Of a stretch of DNA of 44,038 nt, positions 15,429 through 33,480 are shown one piece after another (within the stretch, counting starts at the first letter, position 1; every line of letters begins with the position of its first letter). This DNA is from Phormidium tenue FACHB-886 (GTDB lineage: Bacteria > Cyanobacteriota > Cyanobacteriia > Elainellales > Elainellaceae): assembly GCF_014764505.1 (NCBI RefSeq), contig NZ_JACXWX010000037.1, forward strand, positions 1 through 44,038. Reading direction: 5' to 3'. The position numbers and the translations under genes are program-made. The notes beneath the pieces were generated by a model. The model had not been told where the DNA came from. It did not search any database and saw nothing but the letters and a program-made list of their open reading frames with translations.

Positions 15429-17147
15429 TTATTGAAACTGCTGGGCATAAAACCGGGCATAGCGACCACCCTGTGCCAGCAGCTCTGCATGGGTTCCGGC
15501 TTCGGCAACCTGACCCTGTTCCAGCACCAAGATGCGATCGGCGCGGCGCACGGTTGCTAAGCGATGCGCGATGATGAATACCGTGCGGTTTTGCATCAGG
15601 CGTTCTAACGCTTCTTGCACAAGCGCTTCTGATTCCGAATCGAGCGCTGAAGTAGCTTCATCCAGAATCAGGATACGCGGATTGAGCAAGACGGCACGGG
15701 CGATCGCAATACGCTGACGTTGCCCACCAGATAGGTTCACGCCCCGCTCGCCCACCCAGGCATAATAGCCGTTAGCAAACTGGCGAATGAATTGGTCGGC
15801 GTTGGCAACTTTGGCGGCAGCTTCCACGGCTTCTAGATCAAATTTCTTTTGCCCAAAGGCGATGTTTTGGGCGATCGTTCCGGAAAACAGCGTCGTTTCC
15901 TGAGGCACAATGCCGATTTGACGGCGCAGGCTGGGCAGCGTCACGTCTCGGATATCTGTCCCGTCGATCAGAATTTGTCCGGCTTGGGGGTCGTAGAAGC
16001 GGGGTAGCAAATTGACCAGCGTAGTTTTGCCTGCGCCTGATGCCCCGACTAGAGCGATCGCTTCTCCCGGATATGCCATGAAGCTAAGATCGTGCAGAAC
16101 GGGCTGGTTTGCTTCGTATTGAAACGAAATGTGGCGGTATTCCACTTTTCCAGTCACGGGCGGCAGCGGCAGCGCCCCGATCTTTTCCCGAACGGCAGGC
16201 TGGAGGGCAAGCAGCTCAAAAATTCGATCGACCGAAGCCTGCCCCTGTTTGTAGGCATTGTAATTTTCGGTGAGGTGGCTAATTGGGTCAACCAGCATAG
16301 CGACTGCCACCACATAGCTGCCAAACTCTTCGCCTGTGAGGTTGCCTGAGGCGATCTGCCATCCGCCCAAAACCAGCAGCAGCAGCACGCTCAGGGCATA
16401 CATAAAGCCCACTGCTGTAAACTGAATTGCCCTTAGCCACTCGGCAGCATATTTTGCCTGCCGATTGCGCTCGGCTTCCTGACTAAAGCGTTCAATCTCA
16501 TACGCTTCTGCCGCAAATGCTCGCACCAAACGAATACCGCTAAATACCTCTGTCATCTGCGAAGAGAGATCAGAGATTAGATTCTGGCTGCGGCGCGAGA
16601 GCTGCAGTATTCGTTCACCAAACCAGCTAATCAGCACCCCCATCAGCGGCACAACCAGAAAGCTAGCTAGGGTTAGCTGCCAGTTGAGGTAGACCATGTA
16701 GCCAAAGACGGCAACCAGCTGCAGCAGGCAAGGGGTAGAGTCGTGGAAGATTTTGTTGATCACCTCGCCAATTCGATCGATGTCTTCCGTCAGCCGATAG
16801 GATAAGTCCCCCGTTTGCGCCTTCTCAAAGTAGCTGAGGCTAAGCGTCTGCAGATGGGCATAGACGCGCTTCCGCAGGTCAAGGGCGATCGCCAATGCCG
16901 CTTTTGCCATCAGCGAGTCTTGCCCATACTGAGCAAACTTTTGAACAAAAAAGATGCCTGCCACCACTCCCGCTGCCTTTGCCAACGATGGCACATCCCC
17001 TTTAACTAGAAAGCCCAAGAGCTGCCCTGCCAACGCTGCCAGCAGGGGCCAGCAGACTGTGAAAACGACGGTGCAACCCAAAGCCAGGACGATCGTCCGC
17101 CAGTGGGGACGCAGGTAAGGCAGCAGATCGACGTAGCTACGTTTCAT
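15429..17147 (-). CDS. ABC exporter half-transporter (MsbA/HepA-like)
   Basis: This is a type-I exporter with a fused membrane and nucleotide-binding domain that acts as a homodimer. Six membrane helices span about residues 15-300. The ATPase domain has Walker A GASGAGKTT (about 366), signature LSGGQRQR (about 470), Walker B ILILDEATSALDS (about 498) and the H-loop IIAHRLAT (about 525). Length 572 is standard. Relatives export lipids, envelope glycolipids or peptides; the substrate is not shown here. The start ATG at 17147 gives the natural MKRSYVDLLPYLRPH N-terminus. It lies downstream of ftsH but is separated by the ftsH terminator at 17267-17294, so it has its own promoter. Confidence 0.92.
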   Translation of the reverse strand: MKRSYVDLLPYLRPHWRTIVLALGCTVVFTVCWPLLAALAGQLLGFLVKGDVPSLAKAAGVVAGIFFVQKFAQYGQDSLMAKAALAIALDLRKRVYAHLQTLSLSYFEKAQTGDLSYRLTEDIDRIGEVINKIFHDSTPCLLQLVAVFGYMVYLNWQLTLASFLVVPLMGVLISWFGERILQLSRRSQNLISDLSSQMTEVFSGIRLVRAFAAEAYEIERFSQEAERNRQAKYAAEWLRAIQFTAVGFMYALSVLLLLVLGGWQIASGNLTGEEFGSYVVAVAMLVDPISHLTENYNAYKQGQASVDRIFELLALQPAVREKIGALPLPPVTGKVEYRHISFQYEANQPVLHDLSFMAYPGEAIALVGASGAGKTTLVNLLPRFYDPQAGQILIDGTDIRDVTLPSLRRQIGIVPQETTLFSGTIAQNIAFGQKKFDLEAVEAAAKVANADQFIRQFANGYYAWVGERGVNLSGGQRQRIAIARAVLLNPRILILDEATSALDSESEALVQEALERLMQNRTVFIIAHRLATVRRADRILVLEQGQVAEAGTHAELLAQGGRYARFYAQQFQ

Positions 17148-26892: not shown

Positions 26893-28593
26893 ATGTCAGC
26901 GGGTCTCACGATTGCTGATTTGCTGCAGGCGCAAGCGCGAGCTTATCCTCAAGCGATCGCGCTGATTGTTCCTGGCAAAACAGGGAAAGGGATTAATCGG
27001 GCTTCATTGCCAGAGCAAACGCTGACTTTTGCCGAACTAGAGCAGGCAGTTTGCCAAACGGCTGCCCAACTGCAGCAGGCGGGGCTGCGATCGGGTGAGG
27101 CGGCGTTGGTGTTTCAGCCCATGTCGATTGAGCTATATGTCCTGCTGCTGGCGCTGTTTCAGATGGGCGCGATTGCGATGTTTGTAGATCCTTCTGCGGG
27201 ACGCGATCATCTGGAGCAATGCTGTGCGCTTTATCCGCCGAAAGCTCTAATTGCCAGCGCTAAGGCACACTGGCTGAGGGTGCGATCGCCTGCGTTGCGC
27301 TCAATTCCTCTCAAGTGGGCAGTTCAAAGCGCTGCCAAAGGTTGGCTGCCCGTTCCCGGCGCAACGCCTTGGCGATTACCTAACCCAGATTCCCCTGTCC
27401 TGCCTTGTTGTTCGCCTGCACCCACCGCTCCAGCGCTGCTCACCTTTACCAGCGGCAGCACCGGACAGCCCAAAGCCGCTCTGCGGACGCATGCCTTTCT
27501 GTTGGCACAGCATCGATCGCTTTCTGCCAGCTTGCGGCTAACGGCGGGTGAGGTTGATTTATCCACACTGCCGATCTTTGTGCTGGCAAATCTGGCTTCT
27601 GGAGTAACAAGCCTGATTCCTAGAGTGGATTTGCGATCTCCAGGCAGGATCGATGCTGCTACTCTGATGGCGCAGATTCAGCGCTGCTTGCCGCATAGCA
27701 CAGCAGCTTCCCCAGCTCTGCTAGAGCGGCTGGTAGATTACTGTGAAGCAAATGAAATTCAGCTCTCCAGCTTTCAAAGAATTTTTAGTGGCGGTGCGCC
27801 TGTGCTGCCCAAATTGCTAGAGCGGCTGCAAAGGCTGGCTCCGCAGGCAGAAGTTAGCGCTGTCTACGGCTCCACAGAGGCAGAGCCGATCGCCCACATC
27901 GCCTATCGTCAATTCCAATCTGAGGACGTGACGGCGATGCAAAACGGAGCGGGGCTACTGGTGGGAAAGCCCGTTGCTGAAATTCGGCTGCGAGTGGTGG
28001 TCAATCAGTGGGGACAGCCGATCGACCCGCTCAGCGCAGCAGCGTTTGCAGCAATTGAGCAAGCACCCCATGCTGCCGGTGAAATTGTGGTGAGTGGTGA
28101 TCATGTCTTGCCCGGATATTTAAACGGGCAGGGCGATCGAGAGACTAAGTTTCAGGTGGAGGGGCAAGTGTGGCACCGTACGGGTGATTTGGGCTATCTG
28201 GATACTGATGGGCGGCTGTGGTTGCTGGGTCGCTGTAGTGCGGCGATCGCTGATGAGCAGGGCGTTTTGTATCCGTTTGCAGTGGAGGTTGCAGCTAGTT
28301 TTGTGGAGGGGATTCGCCGCACAGCCGTTGTCAGCCAGCCTGGAAAACGACTGTTGGTAGTGGAGCTAGCGCCCGACCGGCTATCCAGCCAACAACCCAG
28401 TCAACAGCCCAGTCAACAGCCCAGCCAACAGTCCAGTCAACAGCAGATAACCTGCCTAGAGATGCTACGACGATCGTTGGCTTGGGCAGCCCTTCAGGAG
28501 TACCGAGTTATCGCTGAAATTCCAGTCGATCGGCGGCACAACGCCAAAGTGAACTATCCAGCCTTGTTTAAGCTGCTGTCGATGAAATCTTAA
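26893..28593 (+). CDS. OleC-like AMP-dependent synthetase/ligase
   Basis: This is an adenylate-forming enzyme of the ANL superfamily that activates a carboxylic acid with ATP. The A3 core LLTFTSGSTGQPKAA, A5 VYGSTEAEPIAHI, A7 WHRTGDLGYLD and A10-like VDRRHNAKVNY are clear. FSGGAPVLPKLL and the A10 form match the OleC group, which makes beta-lactones in olefin synthesis, but no oleA, B or D is visible, so the product is open. A flexible insert of five SQQP-type units (residues 499-518) sits in the C-terminal domain. Length 566. ATG at 26893 follows GGAGGG and the gene forms an operon with the 183-residue protein. Confidence 0.85.
   Translation: MSAGLTIADLLQAQARAYPQAIALIVPGKTGKGINRASLPEQTLTFAELEQAVCQTAAQLQQAGLRSGEAALVFQPMSIELYVLLLALFQMGAIAMFVDPSAGRDHLEQCCALYPPKALIASAKAHWLRVRSPALRSIPLKWAVQSAAKGWLPVPGATPWRLPNPDSPVLPCCSPAPTAPALLTFTSGSTGQPKAALRTHAFLLAQHRSLSASLRLTAGEVDLSTLPIFVLANLASGVTSLIPRVDLRSPGRIDAATLMAQIQRCLPHSTAASPALLERLVDYCEANEIQLSSFQRIFSGGAPVLPKLLERLQRLAPQAEVSAVYGSTEAEPIAHIAYRQFQSEDVTAMQNGAGLLVGKPVAEIRLRVVVNQWGQPIDPLSAAAFAAIEQAPHAAGEIVVSGDHVLPGYLNGQGDRETKFQVEGQVWHRTGDLGYLDTDGRLWLLGRCSAAIADEQGVLYPFAVEVAASFVEGIRRTAVVSQPGKRLLVVELAPDRLSSQQPSQQPSQQPSQQSSQQQITCLEMLRRSLAWAALQEYRVIAEIPVDRRHNAKVNYPALFKLLSMKS
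28387..28446 (+). repeat. Five tandem 12-bp units coding SQQP
   Basis: Units begin at 28387, 28399, 28411, 28423 and 28435 with consensus AGTCAACAGCCC. They are in frame and encode SQQP SQQP SQQP SQQS SQQQ. The 12-base unit allows length change without a frameshift. Confidence 0.9.
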
Positions 28594-30202: not shown

Positions 30203-31291
30203 ATGAACCAACGCGATCGTACCTCTCCTAAAGCGCTAGGGATTAATCGTCGCAAGTTTATTCAGTATGGCTCTCTTGCCGTTGGAACCAGCCTTGTTGC
30301 AGCCTGTTCCGGTACCAATACAGCTTCCAGTACGAATGCAGCCTCCTCTAGCCCTGCCAGCCCCCAAGCGCTCGACAAGATCAGGTTTGGCACAAGCTGG
30401 TATGCCCAGGCAGAGCATGGCGGCTTCTATCAAGCAGTTGCAGAAGGGATTTACAAAGCACATGGGCTGGATGTGGCGATCCAGATGGGGGGTCCGCAGG
30501 TCAACACGACTCAGCTTTTGATGGGAGGTGCTGTGGATTTTGTGATGGCGACGGACTGCCTGGTAACACTCAATTCCATTGCGGAAAACATCCCCAAGAT
30601 CGCAGTTGCCGCTATGTTCCAGAAGAGCCCCAGGGTGCTGATCGCTCATCCGCAGGTGAATGATCTGAGTCAGATGAAGGGCAAACCCATCTTCATTGCT
30701 ACCTCCGCCAACACCTCCTACTGGCCCTTCCTGAAGGCGAAGTATGGGTTCACAGATGACCAGAAACGCGCCTACAACTACAACATCGCCCCATTTCTAG
30801 CGGACAAAACTTCTGCTCAGCAGGGCTTTGTCTCCTCTGAGCCGCTGACGATCGCCCAAAAAGGCGGTTTTGAACCCAAGGTGTTTCTGTTGGCAGACTT
30901 GGGCTACCAGCCCTATGCCAACATGATCGAAACCCAGAAAGAACTTGTTGAACAGAATCCAGATTTGGTGCAGCGTTTTGTAGATGCCTCTATCAAAGGC
31001 TGGTATAGCTACCTGGAGAACCCAGCGCCTGCCAACGAGTTGATCAAAAAAGACAATCCAGAAATGACTGATGAGCAGCTAGCCTACAGCGTCTCCAAGC
31101 TCAAAGAACATAACATTTTGACGAACGGCGAAGCTGGCAGTCTGGGCATTGGCGCGATGACCGAGCAACGCTGGCAATCCCTTTTCAATGACATGGTGAA
31201 GGTTGGGGTACTGAAAGCCGAAACGAAATATCAGGATGCTTTCACGCTGCAGTTTATCAATAAGGGAACCGAAGCCTACAGAACCGCTTAA
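30203..31291 (+). CDS. Tat-exported lipoprotein, NMT1/THI5-like ABC substrate-binding protein
   Basis: The protein captures a small ligand for an ABC importer at the outer face of the plasma membrane. The N-terminus has a Tat motif NRRKFIQYG (about 15-23), a hydrophobic stretch and a lipobox LVAAC with acylated Cys35, followed by a Ser/Thr/Ala linker. The mature part begins KIRFGTSWYAQAEHGGFYQA, typical of the NMT1/THI5 (SsuA/ThiY/TauA-like) fold, with GLDVAIQMGG and GAVDFVMATD. Relatives bind pyrimidines, sulfonates, nitrate or riboflavin; the ligand here is unknown. No permease or ATPase gene is adjacent. It sits 75 bp before the tandem Rieske oxygenases on the same strand, suggesting a shared substrate. 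Confidence 0.87.
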   Translation: MNQRDRTSPKALGINRRKFIQYGSLAVGTSLVAACSGTNTASSTNAASSSPASPQALDKIRFGTSWYAQAEHGGFYQAVAEGIYKAHGLDVAIQMGGPQVNTTQLLMGGAVDFVMATDCLVTLNSIAENIPKIAVAAMFQKSPRVLIAHPQVNDLSQMKGKPIFIATSANTSYWPFLKAKYGFTDDQKRAYNYNIAPFLADKTSAQQGFVSSEPLTIAQKGGFEPKVFLLADLGYQPYANMIETQKELVEQNPDLVQRFVDASIKGWYSYLENPAPANELIKKDNPEMTDEQLAYSVSKLKEHNILTNGEAGSLGIGAMTEQRWQSLFNDMVKVGVLKAETKYQDAFTLQFINKGTEAYRTA

Positions 31292-31366
31292 GCGTATCCT
31301 GCAAACCAACTTACTGAAAGGGATACCATCGTTTCTCTTTAAGTCATACCAGCGAGGATATTTCTG

Positions 31367-32377
31367 ATGCAAGTCATGCAACATCCTGTCTTTAGACGAT
31401 TCTGGTATCCCGTGATGCCGATCGCCCATCTCTCAGCGAATCAACCGCAGTCTTTTGAACTGCTTGGACAAAAGCTGGCGCTGTGGCTAGACCAGAGCGG
31501 AAAACCTGCCGCTGTAGAAGATCGCTGCTGCCATCGATCGGCAAAGCTTTCCAAAGGTGAGGTGATCGATGGCAACTTGCGCTGTCCCTATCATGGCTGG
31601 GTGTTTAATGGGGTAGGCACCTGTGTCAAGGTGCCGCAGTGCCCCAACCAACCTATTCCTAAAACCTACTGTGTTCAATCGTTTCACTGCACAGAGCGTT
31701 ATGGCTATGCCTGGGTTTGTTTGGATGAGCCGATCGCCTCTATTCCAGAGATTCCGGAAGCAGCCGATCCAGACTTCCGATTAATTCATGAGTTCTATGA
31801 ACCCTGGCAGTGTAGCGGGCTGCGAATGATGGAAAACGCCTTTGATGGCGCTCATCCGCACTTCGTTCATGCTAATACTTTTGGCGATCGTGATAATCCC
31901 GTACCACCCCCTTACGACCAGATTGAAGAGACAGCGACTGGGCTGCATGTCACCAACGTGCTAGAGGTGCTGAACCCAGCTCTCCAGCAGCAGAATCTCC
32001 GGATCGCAGCGCAGAAAACCCTGCGGTCTTACGATCGCGTCTGGTATCTCCCCTTTACTGCCAGAGCTGCCATTTCTTACCCAACAGGATTGACGCATGT
32101 GATTGTTCTAACTGCCACCCCAATCAACGATCAAGCTTCGCAACTAGTTCAGTTTTGTCTTCGGAATGATACAGAAACGGATGCTAAAGCCAGCGACGTA
32201 ATTGCATTTGATCGGGCAGTGACGCTAGAAGATCGAGCCGTTTTAGAATCAACCGATCCTGACGTTGAGCTTGCTAGTGCAGCAGAGCAGCATATGGTTT
32301 CAGATAAACCTGGTATTTTGATGCGACAGCGGTTGGCGACTTTGTTGAAAACTCACGCTGAGGCAGCAAGTTACTAG
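31367..32377 (+). CDS. Rieske non-heme iron oxygenase, VanA/PaO-type, copy 1
   Basis: This is the oxygenase component of a Rieske-type mono- or dioxygenase, which uses O2 and electrons from a ferredoxin to oxidise an aromatic or similar ring, or to demethylate. The [2Fe-2S] ligands are Cys54-x-His56 (CCHRSAKL) and Cys73-x-x-His76 (CPYHGW). The bridging Asp160 and iron ligands His163 and His168 appear in ENAFDGAHPHFVH. Length 336 is typical. There is no membrane helix, unlike plant PaO. No reductase gene is nearby. AGGAT precedes ATG at 31367. It follows the binding protein by 75 bp and precedes its paralogue by 89 bp. Confidence 0.93.
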   Translation: MQVMQHPVFRRFWYPVMPIAHLSANQPQSFELLGQKLALWLDQSGKPAAVEDRCCHRSAKLSKGEVIDGNLRCPYHGWVFNGVGTCVKVPQCPNQPIPKTYCVQSFHCTERYGYAWVCLDEPIASIPEIPEAADPDFRLIHEFYEPWQCSGLRMMENAFDGAHPHFVHANTFGDRDNPVPPPYDQIEETATGLHVTNVLEVLNPALQQQNLRIAAQKTLRSYDRVWYLPFTARAAISYPTGLTHVIVLTATPINDQASQLVQFCLRNDTETDAKASDVIAFDRAVTLEDRAVLESTDPDVELASAAEQHMVSDKPGILMRQRLATLLKTHAEAASY

Positions 32378-32466
32378 CCTGGATATGGCTGTAAAAGTCA
32401 GTAATGTAAAATCATTAGCTCTCAGATATTCATTCAAAATACGGTAAACCAACTCTCAAAAATCAT

Positions 32467-33480
32467 ATGCTCGTTACCCAACAACCTGTTCTCAAGCGCT
32501 TCTGGTATCCCGTGATGCCGCTCGCCCAGCTGCAAACCCCGCAGTCGTTTCAGCTCCTGGGGCAGCGGCTGGCAATCTGGATTGATGAAGAGGGTCAGCC
32601 TGCGGCTGTAGAAGATCGCTGCTGCCATCGATCGGCAAAGCTTTCGCAGGGTGTGGTCAGTAATGGCAATATCCGCTGTCCTTATCATGGCTGGGCGTTC
32701 AATGCAGCAGGGGTGTGTGTAGATGTGCCGCAGCGCCCTGAGCAGCCAATCCCCAAAACCTATTGCGTCCGGTGGTTTCGGGCGGCAAAACGGTATGGAT
32801 ATGTTTGGGTGTGCTTGGGTGAACCGCTGACAGATATTCCAGAGATTCCTGAAGCATTTGATCCGCAGTTTCGGCTGATTCCACAGTTCTATGAGGTTTG
32901 GCGCTGCGCAGGGCTGCGGCTGATGGAGAACTCGTTTGATAATGCGCATCCGCAATTTGTTCATGCAGATACGTTTGGCGTTCAGCAAGAACCGATTCCA
33001 CCTGAGCCTGACTCATTCGAGGAAACCGAATTTGGGCTGCGCATGACCTACGTTCTACCCGTTTTTAATACCGATCTTCAAAAGCAAAACTTAAACCAGA
33101 GCGAAAGCAGGACCGTGCGAATCAGTGAAGGAACTTGGTTTATGCCCTTCATCCGCACGCTAAAGATTAGCTATCCGAATGGCTTGGTTCATCTAATTTT
33201 CACGGCTGCCACGCCGATCGATGACAACACCTCCCAGCTCGTGCAGTTCTGCTTGCGAAACGATACTGAAGCAGAAGCGAAAGCAGAAAATATCATCGCG
33301 TTTGATCGCGCCGTCACTCAAGAAGATCAGGAGATTTTGGAAGGTACTGAGTTTGATGTGCCGCTCAGCATCGGTGAAGAACAGCATATGAGTACAGACA
33401 AGCCTGGGATCGTAATGCGGCACAAACTTGCTGCACTGCTCAGGGCACATGGAGAAGTAGAACAGCGCGCTAGCAGATAA
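32467..33480 (+). CDS. Rieske non-heme iron oxygenase, VanA/PaO-type, copy 2
   Basis: This is a tandem paralogue of the preceding oxygenase, similar along its full length. The Rieske ligands are Cys52-x-His54 and Cys71-x-x-His74; the mononuclear iron site is Asp158, His161 and His166 in ENSFDNAHPQFVH. All ligands are intact, so both copies should be active. The two proteins match best in the Rieske domain and differ more at the substrate-binding C-terminal half (for example AADPDFRLIHEFYEPW against AFDPQFRLIPQFYEVW), so their substrates may differ or they may form a mixed trimer. A 41-base stretch is identical in both genes. It is probably co-transcribed with copy 1. Confidence 0.93.
   Translation: MLVTQQPVLKRFWYPVMPLAQLQTPQSFQLLGQRLAIWIDEEGQPAAVEDRCCHRSAKLSQGVVSNGNIRCPYHGWAFNAAGVCVDVPQRPEQPIPKTYCVRWFRAAKRYGYVWVCLGEPLTDIPEIPEAFDPQFRLIPQFYEVWRCAGLRLMENSFDNAHPQFVHADTFGVQQEPIPPEPDSFEETEFGLRMTYVLPVFNTDLQKQNLNQSESRTVRISEGTWFMPFIRTLKISYPNGLVHLIFTAATPIDDNTSQLVQFCLRNDTEAEAKAENIIAFDRAVTQEDQEILEGTEFDVPLSIGEEQHMSTDKPGIVMRHKLAALLRAHGEVEQRASR

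Follow-up and report, generated by a model that had tools for sequence, protein, structure and literature searches.

We describe three consecutive genes, encoding a substrate-binding lipoprotein and two Rieske non-haem iron oxygenases, at positions 30203-33480 of a stretch of 44,038 nucleotides (the window) from the cyanobacterium Phormidium tenue FACHB-886, and propose, with a probability of roughly 0.58, that this trio is the part responsible for capture and first oxidation in a network, spread over several loci, for the scavenging of purines or purine-like N-heterocycles. An earlier sequence-only reading of the same DNA had suggested a module for the capture and oxidation of a single class of compound, which the analysis narrows down to purines or N-heterocycles resembling them. 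Throughout the text R1 is the oxygenase encoded at 31367-32377 and R2 the one at 32467-33480; the prefixes G, L and C designate genomes, loci and contigs, and the genome of P. tenue itself, an assembly of 8.9 Mb in 255 contigs, is G000.

Urate-pathway genes and shared operons

Relatives of the oxygenases, 57-61% identical to R2, are found within cyanobacterial urate operons (HpxO 600.7 bits, cut-off 500). At locus L183 the Rieske gene is accompanied by HpxO, HIUase, OHCU decarboxylase and a xanthine permease, all above the NCBIfam cut-offs; at L182 the same four are found together with an 8-oxoguanine deaminase (688.7 vs 532) and the Rieske gene, and L187/L239 combines the latter with HpxO, HIUase, an 8-oxoguanine-deaminase relative, OHCU decarboxylase and the allantoinase PuuE. 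The Rieske gene is found with HpxO and a guanine deaminase at L189, and adjoins HIUase at L184.

The association was quantified in a sample of 292 cyanobacterial genomes, by requiring E <= 1e-40 for the binding protein, E <= 1e-70 for the Rieske oxygenase and a score over the cut-off for HpxO, which resulted in 20, 15 and 22 carriers, respectively. HpxO is present in 13 of the 15 Rieske genomes, with 1.1 expected (p = 3.6e-15); Rieske and binding protein share 9 genomes, with 1.0 expected (p = 1.8e-8), and 9 of the 20 binding-protein genomes contain HpxO, with 1.5 expected (p = 1.4e-6). Exclusion of the P. tenue genome leaves 12 of 14, 8 of 14 and 8 of 19 for the pairs Rieske-HpxO, Rieske-binding protein and binding protein-HpxO; counting by genus (116 genera), which partly removes shared ancestry, the same pairs give p values of 4.6e-11 (13 of 15 genera), 1.0e-5 and 1.4e-4. 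In 5 of the 15 Rieske genomes (G121, G129, G172, G286 and G215) a urate-pathway gene directly adjoins the Rieske gene, an arrangement not found in the window.

Neighbourhoods were examined at 47 (L029-L075) of 80 loci, several of which are short contigs, and a binding-protein match (E <= 1e-12) was present at 12 of the 47. Binding protein and Rieske oxygenase lie in one operon with ATPase and permease at L032, L033, L036, L039 and G005:C60. The full order, found at L033, L036 and L039 (GTDB contigs) and at G005:C60, is: divergent GntR/FCD regulator, binding protein, ATPase, permease, Rieske, Rieske, amidohydrolase. L032 shows the same start with one Rieske gene and no amidohydrolase, L035 lies at the edge of a contig and carries the downstream half, and the amidohydrolase of G005:C60 (L168) is in two pieces, perhaps because of a frameshift. 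As a reductase candidate, no further open reading frame (ORF) of at least 100-110 amino acids (aa) was found on the operon strand of the four full operons: the missing reductase, listed as an odd point by the sequence-only reading, is thus ordinary for these relatives.

Similar combinations recur elsewhere. The alphaproteobacterial contig L057 carries binding protein, permease, Rieske, a FAD_binding_4 oxidase, a "cytosine deaminase" and a creatininase; a second alphaproteobacterial contig, L040, carries Rieske, a 2-oxoglutarate (2OG) dioxygenase, binding protein and "cytosine deaminase"; G011 has binding protein, ATPase, permease and "cytosine deaminase" with a distant Rieske (33%) downstream of them. 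On two Rhizobium plasmids (L241 and L242) the first gene of an importer operon encodes a binding protein of about 51% identity; ATPase, permease, cytosine deaminase, FAD oxidase and NAD(P)H oxidoreductase come after it, and genes for creatininase and RidA lie close by. This conserved operon is a putative N-heterocycle pathway common to Rhizobium plasmids and cyanobacteria; a literature search listed no paper on it.

A further link to purines is provided by a riboswitch. Yu and Breaker (PMC7373994) showed the "NMT1 motif" to be a xanthine/urate riboswitch, which lies before, and regulates, genes for NMT1-like binding proteins, for Rieske and 2OG dioxygenases resembling the hpxD and hpxE products, and for guanine/8-oxoguanine deaminases. 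The proteobacterial gene set, as given there, resembles the cyanobacterial one in its NMT1-like binding protein, Rieske oxygenase and amidohydrolase of the 8-oxoguanine/guanine deaminase group; it differs in that the window has no riboswitch, while the full cyanobacterial operons have the divergent GntR/FCD regulator instead. Among 143 sampled genomes of one proteobacterial class the riboswitch was found in one, G420, where one of its copies precedes, by 33 bp, a Rieske gene whose product shares 46% identity with R1 and 45% with R2. Nearby are matches to the binding protein (26%), ATPase (38%), permease (26%) and xanthine permease (29%) and, 11-14 kb further, to OHCU decarboxylase (37%), PuuE (58%) and HIUase (52%). 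Of 229 genomes of this class, close relatives of the Rieske were found in G420, the centre of the search and included by design, and in 0 of the 228 others. In another class one of 240 genomes, G582, has the riboswitch: of two copies in a row (G582:C1:835239-836813, L246), one precedes a PRK12393 amidohydrolase (613 vs 543 bits) and the other a 2OG dioxygenase.

The known precedent for Rieske purine oxidation is HpxDE in Klebsiella, which the pertinent part of the same paper (PMC7373994) describes as a Rieske-type oxidation of hypoxanthine and xanthine. The likeness, by that description and not by sequence, lies in the Rieske-type oxygenase and in the linkage of the window's relatives to HpxO, HIUase, OHCU decarboxylase and guanine deaminase: as with HpxD, the family is associated with urate-pathway genes (HpxO in 13 of 15 genomes), though these are not adjacent in the window. 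The two systems differ in that the window has no reductase gene beside the oxygenases and the P. tenue genome keeps its xanthine dehydrogenase (XDH). The replacement of XDH, typical of HpxD, is not seen in this genome, where xdhA and xdhB are present; a pattern that fits it is seen only in a related subclade described below (7 of 7 HpxO genomes).

The three genes and their products

The features of the trio are as follows.

30203..31291, + strand: substrate-binding lipoprotein, NMT1/THI5-like (NitT/TauT) family, 362 aa (Pfam NMT1, AlphaFold model, fold comparison)
30248..30259, + strand: twin-arginine motif RRKF, residues 16-19 of the lipoprotein (sequence motif)
30296..30307, + strand: lipobox VAAC, residues 32-35 (sequence motif)
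31367..32377, + strand: R1, Rieske non-haem iron oxygenase, 336 aa (Pfam Rieske 83.9 bits, VanA_C 66.3 bits)
31526..31594, + strand: R1 Rieske cluster motif CxH...CxxH, residues 54-76 (sequence motif)
31844..31870, + strand, with D289 at 32231-32233: R1 mononuclear iron site D160..H163....H168 (aligned with NdmA)
32467..33480, + strand: R2, Rieske non-haem iron oxygenase, 337 aa (Pfam Rieske 79.9 bits, VanA_C 68.1 bits)
32620..32688, + strand: R2 Rieske cluster motif, residues 52-74 (sequence motif)
32938..32964, + strand, with D287 at 33325-33327: R2 mononuclear iron site D158..H161....H166 (aligned with NdmA)

The gene content is that of the sequence-only reading: three ORFs on one strand, with gaps of 75 and 89 bp, encode a Tat lipoprotein of the NMT1/THI5 type, recognised by Pfam NMT1 (90.2 bits, E 2.4e-25, cut-off 20.5), by RRKF at residue 16 and by the lipobox at residues 32-35, and two intact VanA-type oxygenases. 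Both the Rieske and the VanA_C domain are over the curated Pfam cut-offs in R1 and R2, and the CxH...CxxH, D..H....H and downstream ED motifs, whose residues we take to be the metal ligands, are intact in both proteins at positions matching the NdmA alignment. By these domains and motifs R1 and R2 belong to the VanA-type Rieske oxygenases; the VanB reductase that accompanies the oxygenase in vanillate O-demethylase VanAB is absent from the scanned ORFs.

Pfam was used to scan 28 ORFs of the window for importer, reductase, purine and biosynthetic-cluster domains. In agreement with the earlier statement that permease, ATPase partner and reductase are lacking beside the trio, these ORFs contain no binding-protein-dependent permease, the sole ABC protein being an exporter-type fusion at 15429-17147, and no reductase domain or partner, including a VanB-type one beside the oxygenases. 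A scan for promoters and terminators was uninformative, with 0 promoter-like sites against 3.4 in shuffled sequences.

The lipoprotein belongs to the NMT1/THI5-like (NitT/TauT) family by Pfam, by its predicted periplasmic-binding-protein fold and by its export signal; the ATPase and permease usually encoded in the same operon are missing from the window, while the full set is found at C112 of the same genome. Export by Tat, also regarded as odd by the sequence-only reading, turned out to be the rule: the RR pair is present in 18 of 21 aligned rows, that is in all rows having an N-terminus, the remaining 3 being truncated sequences. The AlphaFold model (pLDDT 85.9) has as nearest solved folds the thiamin-bound 4nmy (Z 30.1) and ThiY, 3ix1 (Z 28.9), and the sulfonate and taurine binders SsuA (2x26, Z 21.7) and TauA (Z 19.1) score lower. 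In this ranking of folds, which answers part of the structural check proposed earlier, the lipoprotein is closer to thiamin- and aminopyrimidine-binding proteins than to sulfonate or taurine binders. The ThiY/Thi5-type pyrimidine-binding proteins (3ix1, 4nmy, 4esx) share with the lipoprotein the predicted fold (Z 25.8-30.1) and Pfam NMT1, but only 17-20% identity, and no thiamin gene turned up in the operons that were inspected.

In a second binding-protein tree six long or distant rows (L041 twice, L043, L048, L060, L068) were dropped and the C112 protein was added. The window protein is excluded there from the operon clade of 5 members (100/100), the tree giving no finer placement, and has an end branch of 0.49, vs 0.18 for its C112 paralogue. 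At residues 114-123 (window 30542-30571) it reads VMATDCLVTL, one residue more than most rows, where the family loop is mostly xMGYxxDAI. The long end branch and the deviating loop would be compatible with a change of ligand. Plasmid records contain relatives of the binding protein in 147 cases, 110 of them from Rhizobium, and no match to it was found on viral contigs.

R1 and R2 are 62% identical to each other. Their union in a tree, as expected for sisters produced by a recent tandem duplication, was rejected by the approximately unbiased (AU) test (p = 0.0002); they are old paralogues. Relatives of R2 occur in 67 plasmid records, every one below 60% identity. The best relatives of solved structure are NdmA (4.4e-42), SxtDIOX (3.3e-36), SxtT (6.7e-35) and NdmB (1e-28) for R1, and NdmA (2e-37) for R2. 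An alternative is that the two oxygenases act as N- or O-demethylases, or as tailoring hydroxylases in secondary metabolism, similar to NdmA/NdmB or SxtT/SxtDIOX, with the binding protein capturing the compound or its precursor. The ranking of solved relatives of R1, headed by these very enzymes, speaks for it, as does an AMP-binding enzyme at 26893-28593, but the ranking mirrors which structures have been solved, no nonribosomal peptide synthetase, polyketide synthase or other biosynthetic-cluster domain is found in the 28 scanned ORFs, and the relatives lie in catabolic operons. The methylxanthine N-demethylases NdmA and NdmB (6ick, 6icl), although the best solved-structure matches of R1 and R2 over nearly the full length, are remote (148 bits for R1, 132 for R2), and no demethylation pathway genes were seen near R1 and R2. 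We regard this explanation as rather improbable; that the nearest enzyme of solved structure is a methylxanthine demethylase also speaks for the purine reading.

Oxygenase clades and xanthine dehydrogenase

Two Rieske trees were built, one of 79 rows and one of 43, the latter made up of 39 cyanobacterial sequences and four outsiders of the former. In the 43-row tree all 39 cyanobacterial proteins lie on one side of a branch separating them from the four outsiders (98/95). R2 groups with proteins of G060, LEGE 07170, Lyngbya HA4199 and G177 (99/99), the neighbour of R1 is G008 (89/83), and both lie outside the two operon clades. A placement of R2 within the clade of second operon Rieskes, by which the trio would derive from a full operon, was weakly rejected (p = 0.034); that of R1 within the clade of first operon Rieskes was not rejected (p = 0.26).

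One subclade of 9 Rieske rows (support 99/91 and 99/92) shows a peculiar distribution with respect to molybdenum (Mo) hydroxylases, searched for by domain PF02738 at E <= 1e-10. None of the 7 HpxO genomes with a subclade Rieske, spanning 6 families, has a Mo-hydroxylase, vs 13 of the 15 other HpxO genomes (Fisher p = 0.0002, for a split chosen after the tree was seen). Eleven of the 13 Mo-positive genomes, all except G070 and G262, were checked by NCBIfam: 10, P. tenue and nine others, have xdhB over the cut-off, and G005 has a related type below it. The subclade Rieske thus looks like a substitute for molybdenum xanthine dehydrogenase in cyanobacteria. One further genome, G091, has a subclade Rieske and a Mo-hydroxylase, and no HpxO over the cut-off. 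Over all HpxO genomes, whatever the clade, a simple trade-off between Rieske and Mo-hydroxylase does not reach significance (Fisher p = 0.20); it emerges only when the subclade is set apart. G185 and G289, which belong to one genus and have HpxO, show neither Mo-hydroxylase nor Rieske at the thresholds used, and may use another purine-oxidising enzyme.

A proposed purine network and its alternatives

The rest of the P. tenue genome holds other parts of the proposed network. Fifteen matches to R2 were found, two of which lie at C1:515875 (66% identical) and at C88 (51%). The Rieske gene of C1 is followed by a TRZ/ATZ amidohydrolase, best matched by NCBIfam 8-oxoguanine deaminase, below the cut-off (249 vs 532 bits); that of C88 has as its neighbour a gene of the ureidoglycolate-lyase family (34.2 bits, cut-off 23). 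HpxO is present (609 bits, cut-off 500), as is a true xanthine dehydrogenase (xdhA 520 vs 467, xdhB 1002 vs 849.5). The search for an orphan permease and ATPase elsewhere in the genome, recommended by the sequence-only reading, led to a complete ABC importer at C112, where a binding protein 65% identical to that of the window is followed by ATPase, permease and amidohydrolase; the missing ABC parts, too, are in this light ordinary, and the C112 importer may well serve the window protein.

A second island of purine type was noticed at G000:C203:1-20000 (L238). Besides a fused Mo-hydroxylase of 916 aa it encodes a GntR that shares 53% identity with the regulator of the binding-protein/Rieske operon, an apparent ABC importer of nucleoside type, three binding lipoproteins with a Tat-type signal, a Rieske-type protein of 424 aa and a fragment of a 2OG dioxygenase; several of these were named by eye.

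In the reading that we favour, the base would be bound by the lipoprotein on the outer side of the inner membrane and, as the lipoprotein lacks a dedicated permease, would most likely be passed to the C112 importer. R1 and R2, possibly co-transcribed with the lipoprotein, would hydroxylate the purine ring or demethylate it oxidatively, with O2 and with electrons from general ferredoxins. The products would enter a route of amidohydrolase, xanthine dehydrogenase and HpxO, leading to urate and ureides and to a gain of nitrogen for the cell. Since the genome already has a xanthine dehydrogenase, R1 and R2 probably serve other purines or purine-like bases, and not xanthine itself.

The main rival is a pyrimidine substrate: the binding protein would import a pyrimidine-like base, either cytosine or a derivative or a relative of the thiamin pyrimidine, and the oxygenases would act on that class. 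The amidohydrolase closing the C112 paralogue operon is over the cut-off of the PRK07583 "cytosine deaminase" (645 vs 403 bits), a similar set, with NAD(P)H-dependent oxidoreductase, creatininase and RidA, is present on the two Rhizobium plasmids, and the nearest solved folds bind thiamin and an aminopyrimidine. Against this, the oxygenases associate with urate-pathway genes, family names such as "cytosine deaminase" may span other N-heterocycles, and the window protein deviates from its family in the conserved loop at residues 114-123. On balance we consider a pyrimidine substrate unlikely.

Several observations weigh against the purine reading itself. The window contains no purine gene among the 28 scanned ORFs and, between 24000 and 38000, no match to the xanthine riboswitch (RF03054) up to E 5; at related loci, including three of P. 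tenue, the riboswitch was found in 0 of 29 at the gathering score. It is likewise absent from 21 of 22 genomes with Rieske relatives, and in the remaining one, G307, its copy precedes the gene of a 2OG dioxygenase and not a Rieske gene. Two of the 15 Rieske genomes (G091 and G177) have no HpxO over the cut-off. In the 43-row tree the XDH-replacing subclade contains neither R1 nor R2, although joining R1 to it is not firmly rejected (AU p = 0.09), and, the genome having a true xanthine dehydrogenase, the two are not needed for plain xanthine oxidation. The "cytosine deaminase"-type enzyme at the end of the C112 importer operon could, as said, point to pyrimidines. Whatever the substrate, R2 is followed on the same strand, after only 64 bp, by a photosystem gene, PsbP, so that the closeness of the three genes does not by itself prove an operon.

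The last point bears on a third alternative, a fortuitous neighbourhood of an orphan binding protein and two orphan oxygenases with unrelated roles. The genome contains 25 NMT1 matches, the spacing to PsbP is equally short, and none of the other Rieske loci found in the 292 cyanobacterial genomes shows the exact trio; the same families, on the other hand, stand in one operon in other cyanobacteria and together in the alphaproteobacterial contigs L040 and L057, and are jointly present in 9 genomes, vs 1.0 expected. We consider a fortuitous neighbourhood improbable. The conserved co-occurrence that the sequence-only reading proposed to search for is borne out at the level of genomes (9 of 292), but not at that of adjacency, binding protein and Rieske lying side by side in only 2 of the 9 (P. 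tenue and G005). Its idea of one module for one compound class is partly supported, by co-occurrence and shared operons, but not as a fixed gene arrangement.

The purine reading can be extended to a wider proposal, which we offer tentatively and with some doubt. Cyanobacteria would possess Rieske purine hydroxylases without a reductase of their own, driven by ferredoxin, of which one subclade would replace molybdenum XDH outright and others, R1 and R2 included, would have diversified towards methylated, 8-oxo or amino purines, delivered by a dedicated binding protein that borrows the permease of its sister. Among the open-licence PMC papers listed in the literature searches, no title or abstract beginning mentions a purine role of this kind in cyanobacteria.

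Purines are a nitrogen source that can be shared among aquatic microbes (PMC11698098). Of wider interest than the window itself is the subclade, as a possible Mo-free substitute for xanthine dehydrogenase in cyanobacteria. If this is true, a clade of Rieske proteins carrying only a general annotation would receive a function, and HpxO genomes without Mo-hydroxylase should need the Rieske gene for growth on hypoxanthine; a molybdenum-free, O2-dependent entry to purine breakdown would change the way in which nitrogen use is read from cyanobacterial genomes.

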